A DNA stretch of 64,000 nucleotides, taken from the NCBI GenBank assembly GCA_021202515.1, contig JAJQCW010000026.1, positions 1-64,000 on the forward strand, given 5' to 3'. The notes below the pieces were generated by a model. That model saw only the letters and a program-made list of their open reading frames with translations, was not told the origin of the DNA and did not search any database. The DNA is from Clostridiales bacterium. GTDB lineage: Bacteria > Bacillota > Clostridia > Oscillospirales > Oscillospiraceae. The stretch's first letter is position 1. Each line of letters begins with the position of its first letter. Below are positions 21,542-59,921 of the stretch, in pieces. A program made the translations under genes and the position numbers.

Positions 21542-22987
21542 ATGAACTATCGGAGTATTATCAACATATTGGGGTGGATCACCGGCATTGAGGGCGCTTT
21601 TATGCTGCTGCCACTGCTGTGCGCCCTGGTGTACGGCGAGCGGACGGGCATTTTCTTCGCCCTGTGCGCGGCGGGGTGCTTCCTGGCCTGTCTGGGGCTG
21701 ACCCGCATCAAGCGGCGCAAGGACCGCTTTTACGCCAGAGAGGGCTATGTCACCGTGGCGCTGGCGTGGATCGTGATGTCCCTCATTGGCGCGCTGCCCT
21801 TCACCCTCAGCGGGGAAATTCCCAACTATCTGGACGCGGTGTTTGAGACGGTGTCCGGCTTCACAACCACCGGCGCCAGCATTTTGGACGACGTGGAGGC
21901 CCTGAGCCACTGTATGCTCTTCTGGCGGAGCTTCACCCACTGGGTGGGCGGCATGGGCGTGCTGGTTTTTGTGCTGGCCATCCTGCCCCTGGCGGGGGGC
22001 GGCTCCAGCTTCGCCCTGATGCAGGCGGAAAGCCCCGGCCCCTCGGTCTCCAAGCTGGTGCCCCACCTGAAAGCCACCGCCCGGAATCTCTACACCATCT
22101 ACACCGGTCTGACGGTGACGCAAATCATTTTGATGTGCCTGGGCGGGATGCCCCTGTTCGACTCCCTGTGCATCGCCTTCGGCACGGCGGGCACCGGCGG
22201 CTTCGGCGTGCTGGGCGACTCCTGCGCCGCCTACAGCACCTACCTCCAGGTGGTCATCACCGTTTTTATGGTGCTGTTTGGCATCAACTTTGAGTTCTTT
22301 TTCCTCTGCACCCTCCGCCGGTTCCGGGAGGCCGGGAAGATGGAGGAGGTGCGGTGGTATCTGATCATCTTCGTGGGCGCGACCCTGCTGGTGGGAGTGG
22401 ACGTGTTCTGTAAGCAGGGGGGCGGCCTGCTCTACGACTTGCAGCAGAGCGCCTTCCAGGTGGCCAGCGTCATGACCACCACCGGCTTCTCCACCTGCGA
22501 CTTCGACCAGTGGCCCATGTTCGCCAGGATGATTTTGGTGACCATCATGTTCTCCGGGGCCTGCGCCGGCAGCACCGGCGGCGGCCTGAAGGTCAGCCGC
22601 ATCCTGCTCTACGCCAAGGCAGGCGTCCGGGAGGCCCGTGCCCTCATCCAGCCCCGGCGGGTCAGCGCTGTGCGGCTCAATGGCAGCAGCGTGGAGCGCT
22701 CGGTCCTCCAGGGGGCCATGATGTTCCTGGCCTGCTACCTGGGCATTTACGTGGTTTCCATGCTGCTTTTGGCGCTGGACTGCGAGGACTTCACCACCTG
22801 CTTCACCGCCGTGGCCGCCACCATCAACAACATCGGCCCCGGCCTGGCCCAGGTGGGTCCGGCGTGTAACTACGGATTCCTGTCCCCGCTGTCCAAGCTG
22901 ACGCTGATTTTCGACATGCTGGCGGGGCGGCTGGAGGTGTTCCCCATGCTGATTTTGCTGTTCCCCTCCACCTGGAAAAGGAAATGA
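21542..22987 (+). CDS. trkH: Trk/Ktr potassium transporter membrane subunit TrkH
   Basis: A 481-residue K+ translocating subunit with four M1-P-M2 repeats. The filter glycines are visible in TTGASIL, GTGGFGVLG, TTGFSTCD and NNIGPGLAQVG. SGACAGSTGGGLK precedes the intramembrane loop that gates the pore. It pairs with TrkA immediately upstream. No strong ribosome binding site precedes the ATG, so translation may depend on coupling to trkA. A heptad-repeat array begins directly after the stop codon. Confidence 0.95.
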   Translation: MNYRSIINILGWITGIEGAFMLLPLLCALVYGERTGIFFALCAAGCFLACLGLTRIKRRKDRFYAREGYVTVALAWIVMSLIGALPFTLSGEIPNYLDAVFETVSGFTTTGASILDDVEALSHCMLFWRSFTHWVGGMGVLVFVLAILPLAGGGSSFALMQAESPGPSVSKLVPHLKATARNLYTIYTGLTVTQIILMCLGGMPLFDSLCIAFGTAGTGGFGVLGDSCAAYSTYLQVVITVFMVLFGINFEFFFLCTLRRFREAGKMEEVRWYLIIFVGATLLVGVDVFCKQGGGLLYDLQQSAFQVASVMTTTGFSTCDFDQWPMFARMILVTIMFSGACAGSTGGGLKVSRILLYAKAGVREARALIQPRRVSAVRLNGSSVERSVLQGAMMFLACYLGIYVVSMLLLALDCEDFTTCFTAVAATINNIGPGLAQVGPACNYGFLSPLSKLTLIFDMLAGRLEVFPMLILLFPSTWKRK

Positions 22988-23074
22988 GCAATTAGCAATG
23001 CGCTGACCAATTAGCAATTTGCAATTAGCAATGTGCTGACCAATTAGCAATTTGCAATTAGCAATGTGCAATGA
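22988..23074 (-). repeat. heptanucleotide-period array abutting trkH stop (locus A)
   Basis: Read on the minus strand this is a run of TTGCACA, TTGCTAA and TTGCAAA units ending at the trkH stop codon. It includes two perfect 33-bp tandem copies (23002-23034 and 23035-23067). Confidence 0.85.
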
Positions 23075-33552: not shown

Positions 33553-33797
33553 TGGAGAAAACGCCGGAAACCGGAGCGGTACCGCCGGGAATCCCCCCAA
33601 AAGAACGGAAAAGCGCCAGCGGTTGGGGCGGCGTGGAAGGATGCGCCCTCCTTCCTGATTTTTCAGGGTGAGAAAACCCGTTTTCGTACAAGGTGCCTCT
33701 TTCTTTTTGGGGAAAGATGTGAGATAATACTTAGACAATGCCGGACTGCGACCTGTGCGGCGTTATCTTGGAAAGTCTGTCCGGGAGGAGGACACGC

Positions 33798-36122
33798 ATG
33801 AACCCTCAACAGCGCATTGCGGCGGTTTGCTGCGCCGTGTGCATCAATATGCCTCTGCTCTCCGGCCGGGCCGCCGCGCTGGAGATCGACACCCAGGCGT
33901 TCCAGCACCACCCGGTCCGCATGACCGTGGGACTGGTCTCCCTGGCGCTGGCGCTGATTCTGATCATTTACGCCACCACCCGCGCCGCCATCCACCGGGC
34001 CAAACGGGACAAAAGCTATGGCGAGGGCGGCAAGCTGCGGGGCGTCTCCGTCCCGTCCTATAAGAAAAAACGCGGAAACGACAAGCAGTATGGCAGCCGC
34101 TTTCTGGGGCGGGTGCTGCCCAACTACAAGGGGGGCAAGTCCAGCGCGGAGAACGCCAACCTCAAGGGCAGTCTGCCCCTGAGCTACAAGGAAAGCTGGG
34201 GCAGCCAGAAACGCTATGGCAAGTTCCACTTCGGCGCGTTCTTGCCCTTCTATAAAGGCGGCAAGTCCGCCGCAGGAGAGGCCCGCGTTCCCACGCTCCA
34301 CCAGCCCAAGAGCTACGAAAAGCGCAAGGGCCGCCGCTCCCTGGGCGGGATGCGGTTCCCCCTGCCGCTTCCCAGCTATAAGGGAGGTAAATCCTCCGCC
34401 TCTGCCGCCGACCTGCGGGGGACGCTGCCCAACAGCTACAAGGAGAGCCGGGGCAGCGCGAAACGTTACGGTTCCTACCGGTATGGCAGCGCCGTTTCGC
34501 ATTATAAAGGCGGTAAGTCCGCCGCAGGAGAGGCCCGCGTCCCCACCGCTCACCGGCCCGGCAGTCACACCGGCGTCCGGCGGTACAAGGGGCCGGACAG
34601 CACCTGGCGGCCCAACCTGCCCACCCCCAGCTATAAGGGCGGCGCGTCCTCGGCGCGGGGGGCCAAGCTCTACACCACCATGCCCACCAGCTACCGCAAG
34701 GGCAAGGGCGCGGCGGGAGAGGCGGTCATTCCGGTGCCCCACACCCCCAGCAGCCACGGTGGGCGCAGGAGCGACCCCAAGGGGATGACCGGGTGGCGGC
34801 CCAATCTGCCCACCCCCAGCTACAAGGGCGGTGCGTCCTCGGCCAGAGCCGCGAAGCTCTACACCACCACACCCGCCAGCTACCGCAAGGGCAAGGGCGC
34901 GGCGGGAGAAGCCGTGGTTCCGGTGCCCCACACCCCCAGCAGCCACGGTGGGCGCAGGGGGAACGGAAAGCAGTTCACCGGCTGGCGGCCTGATCTGCCC
35001 ACCCCCAGCTATAAGGGCGGCGCGTCCTCGGCCAGAGCTGCGAAGCTCTACACCACTACTCCTGCCAGATACCGCAACGGCAGAGGCGCGGCGGGAGAGG
35101 CAGCCATTCCGGTGCCCCACACCCCCAGCAGCCACAGCGGGCGCAGGATCAATGGGAAGCAGTTCACCGGCTGGCAGCCGGACCTGCCCCTGCCCAGCTA
35201 CAAGGGCGGCATATTCGCCCAAGGCCCCGGCGAAGTCCCCACCACCCACCAGCCCGCCAGACACACCGGGTTCCGGCTGTCCAACCTGCGCTTTGGCGCG
35301 TGGCGGCTGGACGCGCCCATTCCCAGCTACAAGGGCAGCTTTGCCCCGGCGAAGGCAGCGGGGTTCACCCGCCAGGCCCCTCAGACCCATCGGCGGCGGT
35401 TCAACGGCCAGCGCCTGACCGGAAAAACCTGGTGCATCCCGGTGGACAGCTACAAGGGCGGCTATGGCGTGGCCGGCGTGGGCAAGCCTCTCCAGGCGTT
35501 GCCTCCCAGCTACAAAGCCCCCTGGGGCAGCCAGCGGCGCTACACCGGCGTTATGCTGGCGGTGCCCATCCGCATGGACGGCTCACCCATGCCCGCCCGG
35601 ACGGCCATGGAGCTGCCCATGAGCTATAAAGAACCCTGGGGCGGCAGCCGCCGGTACACCGGCGTCCGGTTCCGCCTGCCCATCCGCATGGACGGGTCGC
35701 CAACGCCCCGCTCCCGCGCGGTGGTGGAACTGCCCATGAGCTACAAAGAGCCGTGGGGCAGTCAGCGGCGCTACGGAAAAATCACCGCCATTCCCCACCC
35801 CTTCTCCATCCGCATGGACGGCTCCCCTGTGCCGGAGTCGAAGGTAGTGGTGGAGCTGCCCATGAGCTACAAGGAACCCTGGGGCAGTCAGCGCCGCTAC
35901 GGTTCGGGCTGGGAGTATCCCCCGCTGCCCAAGGCATACCATGGCGGCAGCGTCACCAACCCCAAAGCCCCCTGGCAAAACCCGGAGACCGGCGAGGTCT
36001 ACGTGGAGCATTTGTCCGACGCCAAACGCTACGGCAACCGGCGCTATGGCGGCAAGCTCTACGCCCAGCGGAGCTGTAAGCACTACCAGGCGAAGAAGCC
36101 GGAGACAGCCGATATTACATGA
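33798..36122 (+). CDS. giant basic Tyr-Lys-Gly repeat membrane protein, unknown family
   Basis: A 774-residue protein I cannot place. Residues 1-27 resemble a signal sequence (AAVCCAVCINMPLLSGRAAA). A transmembrane helix follows at about 42-62, then RAAIHRAKRDK, so the long tail is predicted cytoplasmic if the first segment is cleaved or loops out. From residue 75 to the end it is extremely rich in K, R, Y, G, S and P, with about 22 YK/YR motifs in two classes: PSYKGGxSSA and MSYKEPWGSQRRYG. A 63-residue unit repeats exactly in register three times (189-bp DNA repeats from 34605, 34794 and 34983). The C-terminus has three 39-42-residue units containing IRMDGSP. GGGAGGAGGA precedes the ATG. 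The composition recalls CotG-like coat proteins; function unknown. Confidence 0.85.
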   Translation: MNPQQRIAAVCCAVCINMPLLSGRAAALEIDTQAFQHHPVRMTVGLVSLALALILIIYATTRAAIHRAKRDKSYGEGGKLRGVSVPSYKKKRGNDKQYGSRFLGRVLPNYKGGKSSAENANLKGSLPLSYKESWGSQKRYGKFHFGAFLPFYKGGKSAAGEARVPTLHQPKSYEKRKGRRSLGGMRFPLPLPSYKGGKSSASAADLRGTLPNSYKESRGSAKRYGSYRYGSAVSHYKGGKSAAGEARVPTAHRPGSHTGVRRYKGPDSTWRPNLPTPSYKGGASSARGAKLYTTMPTSYRKGKGAAGEAVIPVPHTPSSHGGRRSDPKGMTGWRPNLPTPSYKGGASSARAAKLYTTTPASYRKGKGAAGEAVVPVPHTPSSHGGRRGNGKQFTGWRPDLPTPSYKGGASSARAAKLYTTTPARYRNGRGAAGEAAIPVPHTPSSHSGRRINGKQFTGWQPDLPLPSYKGGIFAQGPGEVPTTHQPARHTGFRLSNLRFGAWRLDAPIPSYKGSFAPAKAAGFTRQAPQTHRRRFNGQRLTGKTWCIPVDSYKGGYGVAGVGKPLQALPPSYKAPWGSQRRYTGVMLAVPIRMDGSPMPARTAMELPMSYKEPWGGSRRYTGVRFRLPIRMDGSPTPRSRAVVELPMSYKEPWGSQRRYGKITAIPHPFSIRMDGSPVPESKVVVELPMSYKEPWGSQRRYGSGWEYPPLPKAYHGGSVTNPKAPWQNPETGEVYVEHLSDAKRYGNRRYGGKLYAQRSCKHYQAKKPETADIT
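34605..35171 (+). repeat. three in-frame 189-bp tandem repeats
   Basis: Units start at 34605, 34794 and 34983, and a diverged fourth starts at 35172. Each encodes about 63 residues from WRPxLPTPSYKGGASSA to the next W. The exact multiple of three keeps the frame, so unit gain or loss would not break the gene. Confidence 0.9.
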
Positions 36123-36190: not shown

Positions 36191-36277
36191 TTCTATAGAA
36201 TATAGATATGTTCTATCAATTATGTATTCTAAACCTTGCACCGGTTATACTTTTCTTTAGAATCACAACTCGTTCTA
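36191..36277 (+). promoter_or_regulatory. operators of the XRE regulator gene
   Basis: The palindrome TTCTATAGAA (36191-36200) and the inverted pair TAGAA - N10 - TTCTA (36258-36262 / 36273-36277) lie upstream of the XRE gene. The second pair touches the ribosome binding site, as expected for autoregulation. Confidence 0.6.
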
Positions 36278-36291
36278 AAGGAAGTGACGCA

Positions 36292-36609
36292 ATGGATATG
36301 CAGGCGGTGGGCGAACGCATCCGCGTGGCGCGGGAGGCAAAACATTTGACCCAACAAAGTCTGGCGGAGGAAGTCGGACTGAGCGCCCCGCATATCAGCG
36401 TCATTGAGCGCGGGGTCAAAGCGCCCCGGTTGGACACCTTTGTGGCCATTGCCAACGCATTGGATGTTTCTGCGGATGAGCTGCTGATTGACGTGGTGGA
36501 CCACGCGACGCAGGGAGTAGCCACGGAGTTGTCCTCCGCTATTGCAGAGCAGCCCCGGGAGTATCAAAAGCGCATTTTGAACGCGGTCAAAGCGTTGGTC
36601 GCGGATTAA
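36292..36609 (+). CDS. XRE family helix-turn-helix regulator
   Basis: A 105-residue regulator starting MDMQAVGERIRVAREAKHLT. The HTH_3 domain (residues about 8-62) contains TQQSLAEEVGLSAPHISVIERG as turn and recognition helix. The C-terminal 40 residues are helical and could dimerise. The ATG at 36292 follows AAGGAAG. The same 10-bp palindrome occurs before this gene and before the next, so it probably represses both. Confidence 0.9.
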   Translation: MDMQAVGERIRVAREAKHLTQQSLAEEVGLSAPHISVIERGVKAPRLDTFVAIANALDVSADELLIDVVDHATQGVATELSSAIAEQPREYQKRILNAVKALVAD

Positions 36610-36615
36610 ACGAGG

Positions 36616-36643
36616 AAAAGAGAGCCGGGTGGCTCTCTTTTTT
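36616..36643 (+). terminator. terminator of XRE gene
   Basis: AAAAGAGAGCC and complement (36616-36626 / 36631-36641) with a 4-nt loop and trailing T-run. Confidence 0.85.
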
Positions 36644-36715
36644 CACGTTCAGGCAAAAATTATCAAGAAAACATTTTTTTCGCTCTTTTTCGACCTGTTC
36701 CATAGCTTAAACTAT

Positions 36716-36742
36716 TTCTATAGAATTAATACATATTCTAAA
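36716..36742 (+). promoter_or_regulatory. second TTCTATAGAA operator
   Basis: TTCTATAGAA (36716-36725) and a TTCTA half-site (36736-36740) lie within 36 bp of the next ATG. They are identical to the operator before the XRE gene. Confidence 0.6.
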
Positions 36743-36751
36743 GAAAGAAGA

Positions 36752-36988
36752 ATGAGCATGGAGTTTAACACTATCATAAAAATAATTGCCCAAAAGAACG
36801 GCGTCCGAGAGGATGAGGTACTTCGGGAAATGCAAGCTGCTATCGAGGCCGCACTGAAAAGCGAGGAGCCAACAGCGCAGGCCCATTGGAGAAGCCTTCC
36901 CAAAAGGGGAGACATACCGACCCCGGAAGAAGTGGTTGCGTATCTGGTGCAGCAGGTTATAGAGGATAGCAGGGGGGATTCCCTGTGA
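36752..36988 (+). CDS. small protein, possibly Spo0A C-terminal-like (78 aa)
   Basis: Begins MSMEFNTIIKIIAQKNGVRE and continues with EVLREMQAAIEAAL, then WRSLPKRGDIPTPEEVVAYL. Compact helical proteins with this KNGVxxxEVxxEMQxAI and IPxxGxxPTPEE pattern occur widely in Clostridia and, as I recall, are often labelled Spo0A C-terminal-like. I cannot confirm that. The start follows GAAAGAAG. It has its own XRE-type operator, so it is probably the XRE regulator's target. A heptad array lies between it and convergent spoVAE. Confidence 0.65.
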   Translation: MSMEFNTIIKIIAQKNGVREDEVLREMQAAIEAALKSEEPTAQAHWRSLPKRGDIPTPEEVVAYLVQQVIEDSRGDSL

Positions 36989-37011: not shown

Positions 37012-37053
37012 CATTGCACATTGCACATTGCTAATTGCTAATTGCTAATTGTT
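37012..37053 (+). repeat. heptanucleotide-period array abutting spoVAE stop (locus B)
   Basis: ATTGCACATTGCACA followed by three TTGCTAA units and a final TTG. It ends about 5 nt from the spoVAE stop (complement of 37058-37060). Confidence 0.85.
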
Positions 37054-37057
37054 CTGC

Positions 37058-37426
37058 TCAGTTTTTGTCCCCCGGCTTAAACACCGCCGCCGCCAGCCAG
37101 CCGAACAGCACCGCCGCGGCAATGCCCCCCGCCGCGGCAGTCGTCCCGCCGGTGAAGGCCCCCAACAGGCCCTTTTCCGCCACGGCGGTCTTGACGCCCT
37201 TCGCCAGATTGTATCCGAAGCCGGTCAGCGGCACCGTGGCCCCTGCGCCGCCCCACTCCGCCAGGGGCTGATAGAGGCCCAGCGCTCCAAGCACCACCCC
37301 CGCCACCACGTAGGCGGTGAGGATTTTTGCCGGGGTCAGGGAGGTGCGGTCGATGAGCACCTGCCCCACGGCGCAAATCAATCCACCGCAGAGAAACGCC
37401 CGGACGAATTGCCAAAACAGTTCCAT
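37058..37426 (-). CDS. spoVAE: stage V sporulation protein AE
   Basis: A 122-residue membrane protein with about four hydrophobic helices, of the short SpoVAE (SpoVAEb) type: MELFWQFVRAFLCGGLICAVGQ, then LTPAKILTAYVVAGVVLGALG and GFGYNLAKGV. With SpoVAC and SpoVAD it forms the forespore channel that loads dipicolinic acid and releases it on germination. The ATG at 37426 follows AAAGGAG. It is 24 bp after spoVAD. No spoVAC lies next to the pair, which is unusual. Confidence 0.93.
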   Translation of the reverse strand: MELFWQFVRAFLCGGLICAVGQVLIDRTSLTPAKILTAYVVAGVVLGALGLYQPLAEWGGAGATVPLTGFGYNLAKGVKTAVAEKGLLGAFTGGTTAAAGGIAAAVLFGWLAAAVFKPGDKN

Positions 37427-37450
37427 GTTCAAATCTCCTTTCTGACTGGC

Positions 37451-38473
37451 TTATCCTTCCCGGCTGTTGCAGATGGCCACAGCGTGGCAGATGCCGGGGA
37501 TGGATTCCCCCTGTCCCACGGCGGTGGGGGAGTGGAGCGCGCCGGTGGCGCAGAACAGCAGGCGGTCCCACTTGCCCTCCCGCATCCCGTTGAGCAGGTA
37601 GCCGGTGAGGACGCAGGCGGAGCAGCCGCAGCCGGAGCCGCCACAGTGAACGTCCTGGGTCTCGCAGTCGTAGAGCAGGCAGCCGCAGTCGTTGTAGTTG
37701 CCGGATAATTCCACTCCGTCCCGCCGGAACAGTTCCACCAGCAGGCTCCGCCCCAGCTTGCCCAGGTCGCCGGTGACGATGAGGTCGTAGTAGGAGGGAG
37801 CGCGCCCGGTGTCCCGCAGGTGACAGGAGATGGTGTCGTAGGCCGCCCAGGTCATGGCCGCCCCCATGTTGTTGGCGTCCCTGATGCCCTTGTCGTTGAT
37901 TTTGCCCACGGTGACGTGGGTGATATACGGCCCTGGCCCCTCTTTTGCCAGCACCGCCGCTCCCGCCGCCGTAGCAGTCCACTGAGCGGTAGGGGTCCGC
38001 TGTCCGCCGTACTCCAGCGGTGTGCGGTACTGCCGCTCGGCGGAGCAGAAGTGGGAGGAGGCCATTGCCGCCGCCCACTCCCCGAATCCCCCGTCCAGGG
38101 TCATGGCGGCCAGGGCCAGGGATTCCGCCATGGTGGAGCAGGCCCCGTACAGGCCGAAGTAGGGCACGCCCAGGTCACGGGCGGCGTAGCCGGAGCCGAT
38201 GCACTGGTTCAGCAGGTCCCCGGCGAAGAGGAAATCCAGGGCGGAAAGGGGCTGCCCCGCCTTTTCCAGGGCGTGGGTCAGCGCCAGCTTCTGCATGGCA
38301 GTCTCCGCCTTCTCCCAGGTGCTTTGTCCAAATGTGGCGTCCTGGCTGATGAGGTCGAAGCTGTCCGCCAGCGGCCCCTGCCCCTCCTTCTTGCCCACCA
38401 CGTTGGCGTGGCCCGCGATGGAGGGCGGAGTGGCCAGAGCGTAGGTCTGTCCGCCCAGTTTTTTTGCTGTCAT
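37451..38473 (-). CDS. spoVAD: stage V sporulation protein AD
   Basis: A 340-residue protein with the thiolase-like fold of SpoVAD, which binds dipicolinic acid on the forespore inner membrane. Recognisable blocks are PEDIATFGQSTWEKAE-like DATFGQSTWEKAE, YGACSTMAESLALA, SSHFCSAERQYRTPLEYG, TAAGAAVL and DCGCLLYDCETQDVHCGGSG. It is followed directly by spoVAE. A sigma-G-like promoter is visible upstream. Confidence 0.96.
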   Translation of the reverse strand: MTAKKLGGQTYALATPPSIAGHANVVGKKEGQGPLADSFDLISQDATFGQSTWEKAETAMQKLALTHALEKAGQPLSALDFLFAGDLLNQCIGSGYAARDLGVPYFGLYGACSTMAESLALAAMTLDGGFGEWAAAMASSHFCSAERQYRTPLEYGGQRTPTAQWTATAAGAAVLAKEGPGPYITHVTVGKINDKGIRDANNMGAAMTWAAYDTISCHLRDTGRAPSYYDLIVTGDLGKLGRSLLVELFRRDGVELSGNYNDCGCLLYDCETQDVHCGGSGCGCSACVLTGYLLNGMREGKWDRLLFCATGALHSPTAVGQGESIPGICHAVAICNSREG

Positions 38474-59827: not shown

Positions 59828-59885
59828 ACGTTATGGAAGCTGTGTGCGTGGCAATGGACCGCAGGCGTTCCCCGCCGGTTCATCG

Positions 59886-59921
59886 CACACTGCACATTGC
59901 ACATTGCACATTGCAAATTGT
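59886..59921 (+). repeat. heptanucleotide-period array abutting EF-G paralogue stop (locus E)
   Basis: Three TTGCACA-type units and a TTGCAAA in exact 7-nt steps, ending 1-2 bases before the stop (complement of 59923-59925). Confidence 0.85.

Follow-up and report, generated by a model that had tools for sequence, protein, structure and literature searches.

A giant basic repeat protein of a clostridial genome, apparently derived from the membrane anchor of a 5'-nucleotidase

The window analysed here, a 64,000-nucleotide stretch of the Clostridiales bacterium assembly GCA_021202515.1 (contig JAJQCW010000026.1, positions 1 to 64,000; Oscillospiraceae), encodes at 33798..36122 on the forward strand a large protein with a basic repeat tail. 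On the best overall explanation, to which we assign a probability of about 0.6, it descends from a secreted, membrane-anchored 5'-nucleotidase: the catalytic ectodomain disappeared, a signal-like segment, a transmembrane (TM) anchor and a basic cytoplasmic tail were kept, and tandem duplication would then have extended the tail from some 25 to some 700 residues and made it a membrane scaffold; no enzymatic function would remain. The proposed origin is supported by computed homology of anchor and tail, shared gene positions, intermediate forms and purifying selection.

The original prediction found no recognisable family for this protein, and the database searches, profile searches included, agree: there is no match in Pfam (best E 1.5), none in NCBIfam, none of weight in PHROGs (best E 0.04) and none in the PDB when searched with profile A3, an alignment of the protein with its relatives. 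A SPMIP4-like match (E 1.5 in the window, below the 27-bit cut-off) was read as composition and rejected; the long form of G004 (L035:8729-10570) gives an equally sub-cut-off match (E 0.0012) to PF15093, the sperm microtubule inner protein 4-like family, again probably through composition. Among open-licence full texts no paper was found on the long protein or on an expansion of nucleotidase tails. As judged from sequence, the protein is apparently not an orphan, since its anchor and tail tie it to the membrane-anchored 5'-nucleotidase, and "undescribed system" was too strong a description of a single gene that seems to derive from the membrane anchor of a known enzyme family. The parts of the gene (all on the forward strand) are as follows.

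33798..36122, +, whole gene, 774 amino acids, start ATG 33798 (open reading frame reading; dN/dS against six relatives)
33798..33878, +, signal-peptide-like segment, residues 1-27, end placed by eye (sequence; low-confidence helix 3-27)
33879..33920, +, short, presumably outer segment, residues 28-41, aligned in part to the 5'-nucleotidase juxtamembrane region (hhalign)
33921..33977, +, predicted TM helix, residues ~42-60, probable homologue of the nucleotidase anchor (sequence, model, hhalign)
33978..36119, +, repeat tail of 714 residues, basic and rich in Tyr/Gly, predicted to be cytoplasmic and disordered (composition, model)
34604..35210, +, three tandem 189-bp units (63 amino acids), 83-87% identical (pairwise comparison, Tandem Repeats Finder, TRF)
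35508..35903, +, four C-terminal units of 38-42 amino acids with SYKxPWGxxRRY, IRMDGSP in three (motif search)
36024..36062, +, C-terminal conserved motif KRYGNRRYGGKLY, residues 743-755 (alignment A3)

An alternative in-frame ATG at 33738 would give a product of 794 amino acids. Sequence and model agree with the signal-like N-terminus and single TM helix that were first proposed: the AlphaFold model contains two helices only (3-27 and 39-73), with a pLDDT below 50 across residues 68-774. Comparable N-terminal segments are present in the remaining long rows of A3, L031 excepted.

Homology with the anchors of 5'-nucleotidases

When the N-termini of the long forms (A8) were aligned to the C-termini of nucleotidases (A9) using hhalign, a score of 73.5 was obtained (probability 97.3, E 1.6e-11, 73 columns), against 19.8 for reversed A9 and 13.5, 14.5, 13.0, 16.7 and 11.3 for five other TM families; the clusters used as controls all had at least three members and a strong hydrophobic stretch. 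The enzyme-less short and mid forms described below align to the nucleotidases with a probability of 98.3 (E 1.2e-14, 56 columns). In three enzymes of the same genus (G012, G019 and G435), a signal-like N-terminus and a 5'-nucleotidase domain are followed by the homologous TM helix and tail. These comparisons suggest that the long form very probably descends from a nucleotidase anchor.

The window protein is not itself a 5'-nucleotidase, as it has no Pfam match to the Metallophos and 5_nucleotid_C domains, and it has the C-terminal TM anchor and basic tail that are a feature of the local nucleotidase subgroup. The 5_nucleotid_C family (PF02872) has no match in its own genome and is present in 12 of the 32 genomes of its genus: the three with anchored nucleotidases, six with the long form, where another gene carries it, and G005, G007 and G013. 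More widely, a profile of the nucleotidase C-terminus (A7) matches 60 of 300 genomes of the family, in 30 of 106 genera, its weakest rows (E ~1e-4 to 1e-3) including non-enzymes. The A7 search fetched 30 nucleotidase loci, and among the 29 that were readable YRG lies within the last 12 residues in 22, mostly as a terminal YRxYRG, and is missing there in seven. Anchored 5'-nucleotidases that terminate in YRxYRG-COOH occur in many genera (L212-L241). As a general tag this terminus was rejected: a pattern search of 20 genomes gave 23 matches, against 17 for the backwards pattern; 12 of the 23 fall at nucleotidase sites and the other 11 in five loci, where no long membrane protein was seen.

The original prediction suspected, from charge, that the tail may be cytoplasmic, and this is strengthened by the three same-genus enzymes. 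In those enzymes the domain before the homologous TM helix is itself preceded by a signal-like N-terminus, and the helix leads into basic residues, from which the tail is expected to face the cytoplasm.

Forms and gene positions in the genus

A single-protein search matched seven of 400 genomes of the bacterial family, every one in the window's genus. Within that genus profile A3 matches 23 of 32 genomes, 16 strongly (the long form) and seven weakly. Five of the weak matches (L054, L056, L057, L058 and L060) are proteins of ~240-265 amino acids that share the TM pattern R-x-x-x-G-x-x-C-L with the long form and have a basic loop with Y-x-G motifs and extra TM-like hydrophobic stretches; the sixth (G012) lies at the C-terminal end of a 5'-nucleotidase whose N-terminus is signal-like and which closes with the same TM helix and a basic tail carrying RYG and SYRG, and the seventh (G436) ends at a contig end. 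Taken together, 16 genomes have the long form (split into two contig-end pieces in G006 and G314), three the nucleotidase, six a short form (G021, G023, G005, G016, G008 and G007, that of G005 cut by a contig end) and three another small anchor-tail protein (G010, G436 and G011), and in four (G013, G001, G009 and G003) no form was found. No clear two-form genome was seen among the 32.

The lengths of the tails form a graded series, from 23-27 amino acids in four nucleotidases of other genera and 51, 73 and 92 in the three of the same genus (G012, G019 and G435) to 90 and 135 in one short and one mid form that lack the enzyme, and 495-820 in nine long forms. In the short form of G021 (L054:1489-2286) a W-N-P-x-Y-x-G unit is present in an additional copy, as if the tail had been duplicated in a protein that lacks the enzyme. 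Profile A6, which combines long, short and one nucleotidase anchor, matches 16 genomes outside the genus, five of them on nucleotidase tails that A7 also found (G117, G320, G243, G167 and G084); of nine outside-genus A6 loci opened, one (L077, G154) shows an anchor with a basic tail by a crude motif filter.

The different forms share three gene positions. In the first, nucleotidase genes (G012, G019 and G435) and short-form genes (G007, G016, G008, G005 and G023, the last absent from the gene calls and placed by direct reading) adjoin the same histidine kinase/response regulator pair, mostly in the company of a shared AraC-type gene and of one encoding a Germane domain (L098:789-1670; PF10646, E 1.3e-26), which itself adjoins the histidine kinase and response regulator; the small anchor-tail gene of G011 sits there too. 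In the second, the short form of G021 is convergent with a LUD-domain gene, as are the clade-b long forms L033, L035, L036 and L248. The third is that of the window, where the long gene is convergent with the following pair.

37058..38473, -, spoVAE (37058-37432) and spoVAD (37451-38473), convergent neighbours of the window gene (gene reading)

The long form has this arrangement wherever the contig reaches (G000, G314, G015 and G006). In other genera the spoVAE side is held by a nucleotidase (G113, G089, G128, G126 and G052; one gene intervenes in G128, and the G052 copy is fragmentary, at a contig end) and, in G154, by a small protein with anchor and basic tail. In six clade-b genomes a pseudouridine-synthase gene comes after spoVAE and no long gene stands between the two; this synthase is 28-33% identical to that of the window and perhaps not its orthologue. 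Between the long gene and spoVAE the window has, at 36208-36988, an XRE-type helix-turn-helix gene (PF01381) and an open reading frame of 78 amino acids with a sub-threshold Spo0A_C-like match (E 0.005); in G314 and G006 this gap is far shorter. Three short arrays of AT-rich tandem units that resemble one another (CAATTAGCAAT / CATTGCTAATTGCA / CATTGCA) lie at 22983-23072, 37012-37051 and 59881-59920 of the window.

A SpoVAD tree of 52 rows (30 genomes of the genus and 22 others; G001 and G435, without a SpoVAD match, are outside it) places six short, two nucleotidase and two mid rows, two rows without any form and G011 in one clade (100/98), within which the six short rows form one group (100/99). 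On the other side are the 16 long rows, one row without a form, and G154 and G052 of a neighbouring genus, with weak support (85/63). As enzyme forms occur both in outgroups and in the first clade, parsimony gives at least two losses, so that the tail probably outlived the enzyme part on two or more occasions; re-gain of the enzyme part by fusion is a possible alternative. The number of losses is uncertain because the neighbouring-genus rows fall among the long rows on weak support.

Several observations weigh against this origin and the scaffold proposed below. The homology of long forms and nucleotidases spans only about 73 columns, TM helix and basic tail, and in composition it was matched only by the reversed control; the long and the short/mid profiles align over 30 TM columns only (E 1.3e-8). 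The anchor link is seen by profiles and not by pairwise search, as plain tblastn of the G019 nucleotidase reaches the window anchor only at E 9.3, and tblastn of two nucleotidases against the window gave nothing better than E 0.56. A nucleotidase stands beside spoVA in only five of 101 loci read, some of them cut by contig ends. G052, which kept the enzyme, and G154 fall among the long rows of what is a single-gene tree with weak support there, and G010 holds a further, interrupted A6 match (E 6.7e-4). The low pLDDT of the tail, finally, derives from just seven aligned sequences. Convergence, in which a TM protein of other descent, likewise with a basic tail, settled in positions also used by nucleotidases, would account for a similarity that is confined to TM helix and tail and visible to profiles and not to plain BLAST, and is nonetheless very improbable given three positions in common, one form per genome within the genus and a profile score far above all six controls.

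Selection on the gene and its repeat tail

The gene is a real coding gene under purifying selection. Its reading frame has no internal stops, dN/dS against six relatives is 0.048-0.318 (L021 0.194, L022 0.118, L023 0.066, L024 0.048, L027 0.077 and L026 0.318; codons within the run of N in L022 were skipped), and the codon changes concentrate at third positions. Misassembly, which the original prediction had kept in mind, is countered in part: nine complete long frames, that of the window among them, contain no internal stop (one, in G022, with 33 X from an N run), but the repeat number is unreliable because the contigs of L021, L023, L024, L025, L026 and L027 break in or at the long gene.

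The protein has a net charge of +88, of which the tail contributes +87; in composition the tail is 17.4% K+R, 6.0% Y, 13.0% G and 5.2% D+E. The count of 22 YK/YR dipeptides past residue 75 was reproduced and exceeds every one of 2000 shuffles of the tail (mean 7.3, maximum 19), as do the 14 SYK tripeptides (mean 0.3, maximum 4; 2000 shuffles). The 189-bp repeats, first reported as exact, share only 157, 162 and 164 of 189 bases in pairwise comparison (TRF: 3.2 copies, 85% matches). Towards the C-terminus three units had been counted, which holds for IRMDGSP (residues 591, 629 and 671), whereas SYKxPWGxxRRY occurs four times (residues 571, 609, 648 and 690; spacing 38, 39 and 42) and YKEPWGSQRRY in its exact form at just two places (649 and 691). 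The alternation of two motif classes, Y[KR]GG-type and SYKE/SYKxPWG-type, holds loosely in the first third of the tail, but in the last third the second class prevails. YGGK (750-753), within the conserved C-terminal motif, is invariant in the seven complete rows of A3; row L037 ends with its contig, and its YGGK is internal.

Between the window protein and six long relatives the residues with the highest identity are W (76%), Y (69%) and P (64%); K and R are identical at 31% and 49%, or 57% and 54% when K/R exchange is allowed. Overall identity is 38-52% in three printed pairs, figures to be read with the repeat alignment not being unique. Conserved W, Y and P with exchangeable charges are as expected of aromatic stickers in the long tails; against this, the same residues could just as well serve a single partner as docking motifs.

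These data also bear on the idea that the tail of a stop-transfer anchor grew near-neutrally by slippage and that the protein is a relic without specific function. Tail length does range over 495-820 amino acids in the nine long forms, the tail does contain tandem repeats, and four of the 32 genomes of the genus have no form that we could find. Set against these are a dN/dS of 0.05-0.19 among the five close relatives, the retention of W, Y and P positions, the conserved C-terminal motif and the nine full-length forms without internal stops (one with 33 X), so that we regard near-neutral growth as improbable.

A possible scaffold at the membrane

If the tail is disordered and faces the cytoplasm, it could act as a membrane-tethered multivalent scaffold, whose Tyr/Trp and Arg/Lys motifs might bind each other, anionic partners such as nucleic acid, ribosomes or acidic lipid, or both, and would thereby concentrate those partners at the inner face of the membrane. 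Taken by itself, we put this step at somewhat less than even odds. A matrix or condensate role, as in the original prediction, is possible. A bolder version, which we hold to be rather unlikely, sees the Tyr/Arg tail as an independent module, in origin a cytoplasmic tag on a surface nucleotidase, which would have been freed at least twice and amplified once into a membrane-bound condensate scaffold. Were it true, the anchor of an enzyme would have turned into a new structural protein. Apart from this version, the forms seen in the genomes of one bacterial family offer steps by which an enzyme's anchor may become a large, disordered protein of repeats: first the enzyme with some 25 residues of tail, then the enzyme with 50-90, then an anchor and tail without the enzyme, and at last the giant repeat tail. 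Attention also falls on the conserved C-terminal YRxYRG tail of surface nucleotidases, whose partner on the cytoplasmic side can be sought.

Promoters and a possible spore role

The original prediction considered a part in the spore envelope. In that case the mother cell would produce the protein, and the outer forespore membrane would receive it with the tail towards the coat, where it would nucleate or crosslink coat layers, similar in action to CotG or CotL though belonging to neither kind. The predicted topology would indeed have the tail face the coat if the protein lay in that membrane, the repeats are rich in Tyr and Lys, and the hosts carry sporulation genes, with SpoIVA in 30 of 32 genomes of the genus; yet SpoIVA accompanies long, short and nucleotidase forms alike and does not track the long form. 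The Germane-domain gene (PF10646, "sporulation and spore germination") of the nucleotidase/short position is in keeping with a spore role, as is a C. difficile table (PMC3789822) whose sigma-K regulon includes CD2537, a membrane-associated 5'-nucleotidase possibly related to those discussed here. The spoVA neighbourhood of the window gene is weak evidence for it, since some enzyme forms share the place and the gene is located elsewhere in other clades.

Upstream sequences of relatives point away from the coat. In the window the gene is preceded by a conserved element.

33680..33731, +, leader block with a TGnGATAAT extended -10-like element (GATAAT 33723-33728; alignment A1)

The block comprises 52 bases, invariant but for one in five aligned window-clade species; in only one of the five, L023, about 160 bases (before 5998) are inserted after it, ahead of the long gene's start codon. 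Scored against 300 Markov-resampled sequences, extended -10 sigma-A-like sites of five clade-b long forms, the G007 short form and the G113 nucleotidase were equalled by none (0/300), and the chance fractions were 0.007, 0.013 and 0.03 for G012, G019 and G024; the four window-clade promoters tested (0.25-0.37, the window's own site 0.27) are not above chance. No sigma-E-, sigma-G- or sigma-K-like site was found in a crude motif scan of 18 upstream stretches, and the clade-b -10, CATAAT, also resembles that of sigma-G, a point for the spore role. The sigma-A-like promoters of the relatives speak against a coat role, as does the lack of CotH (PF08757), with zero matches in the window's own genome (97.55% complete) and a positive control in three of 14 genomes including B. 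subtilis. On balance we give a spore-envelope role only a small chance.

Comparison with known systems

CotL of C. difficile is a lysine-rich, basic coat protein of a clostridial spore-former. The likeness of the window protein to it lies in basic composition; the window protein has a membrane anchor, and CotL is not known to have one. Nor are CotG-like proteins known to have a membrane anchor, and the TM helix at residues ~42-60 sets the window protein apart from them. With CotG of Bacillus it shares positively charged tandem repeats, SYK/SYR tripeptides and predicted disorder, and CotG, as described in PMC9765600 and PMC4130616, is a small supercharged protein of 195 amino acids with 47% K/R/H, 19 repeats of six to seven residues and CotH-dependent phosphorylation; the word "transmembrane" does not occur in PMC9765600. 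The window protein, in contrast, has its TM anchor, a far lower charge density (K+R make up 17.4% of the tail), repeat units 38-63 amino acids long and no CotH found in its genome, and its assignment to the CotG-type coat proteins was rejected; it may still act like a coat scaffold or a condensate scaffold. From the anchored 5'-nucleotidase (Metallophos PF00149 plus 5_nucleotid_C PF02872) it differs in lacking the enzyme domains (~600 residues) and in a tail ~27 times longer (714 against 23-27 amino acids). With that enzyme it has in common the signal-like N-terminus, the TM anchor, the basic YRG/RYG tail and the gene positions.

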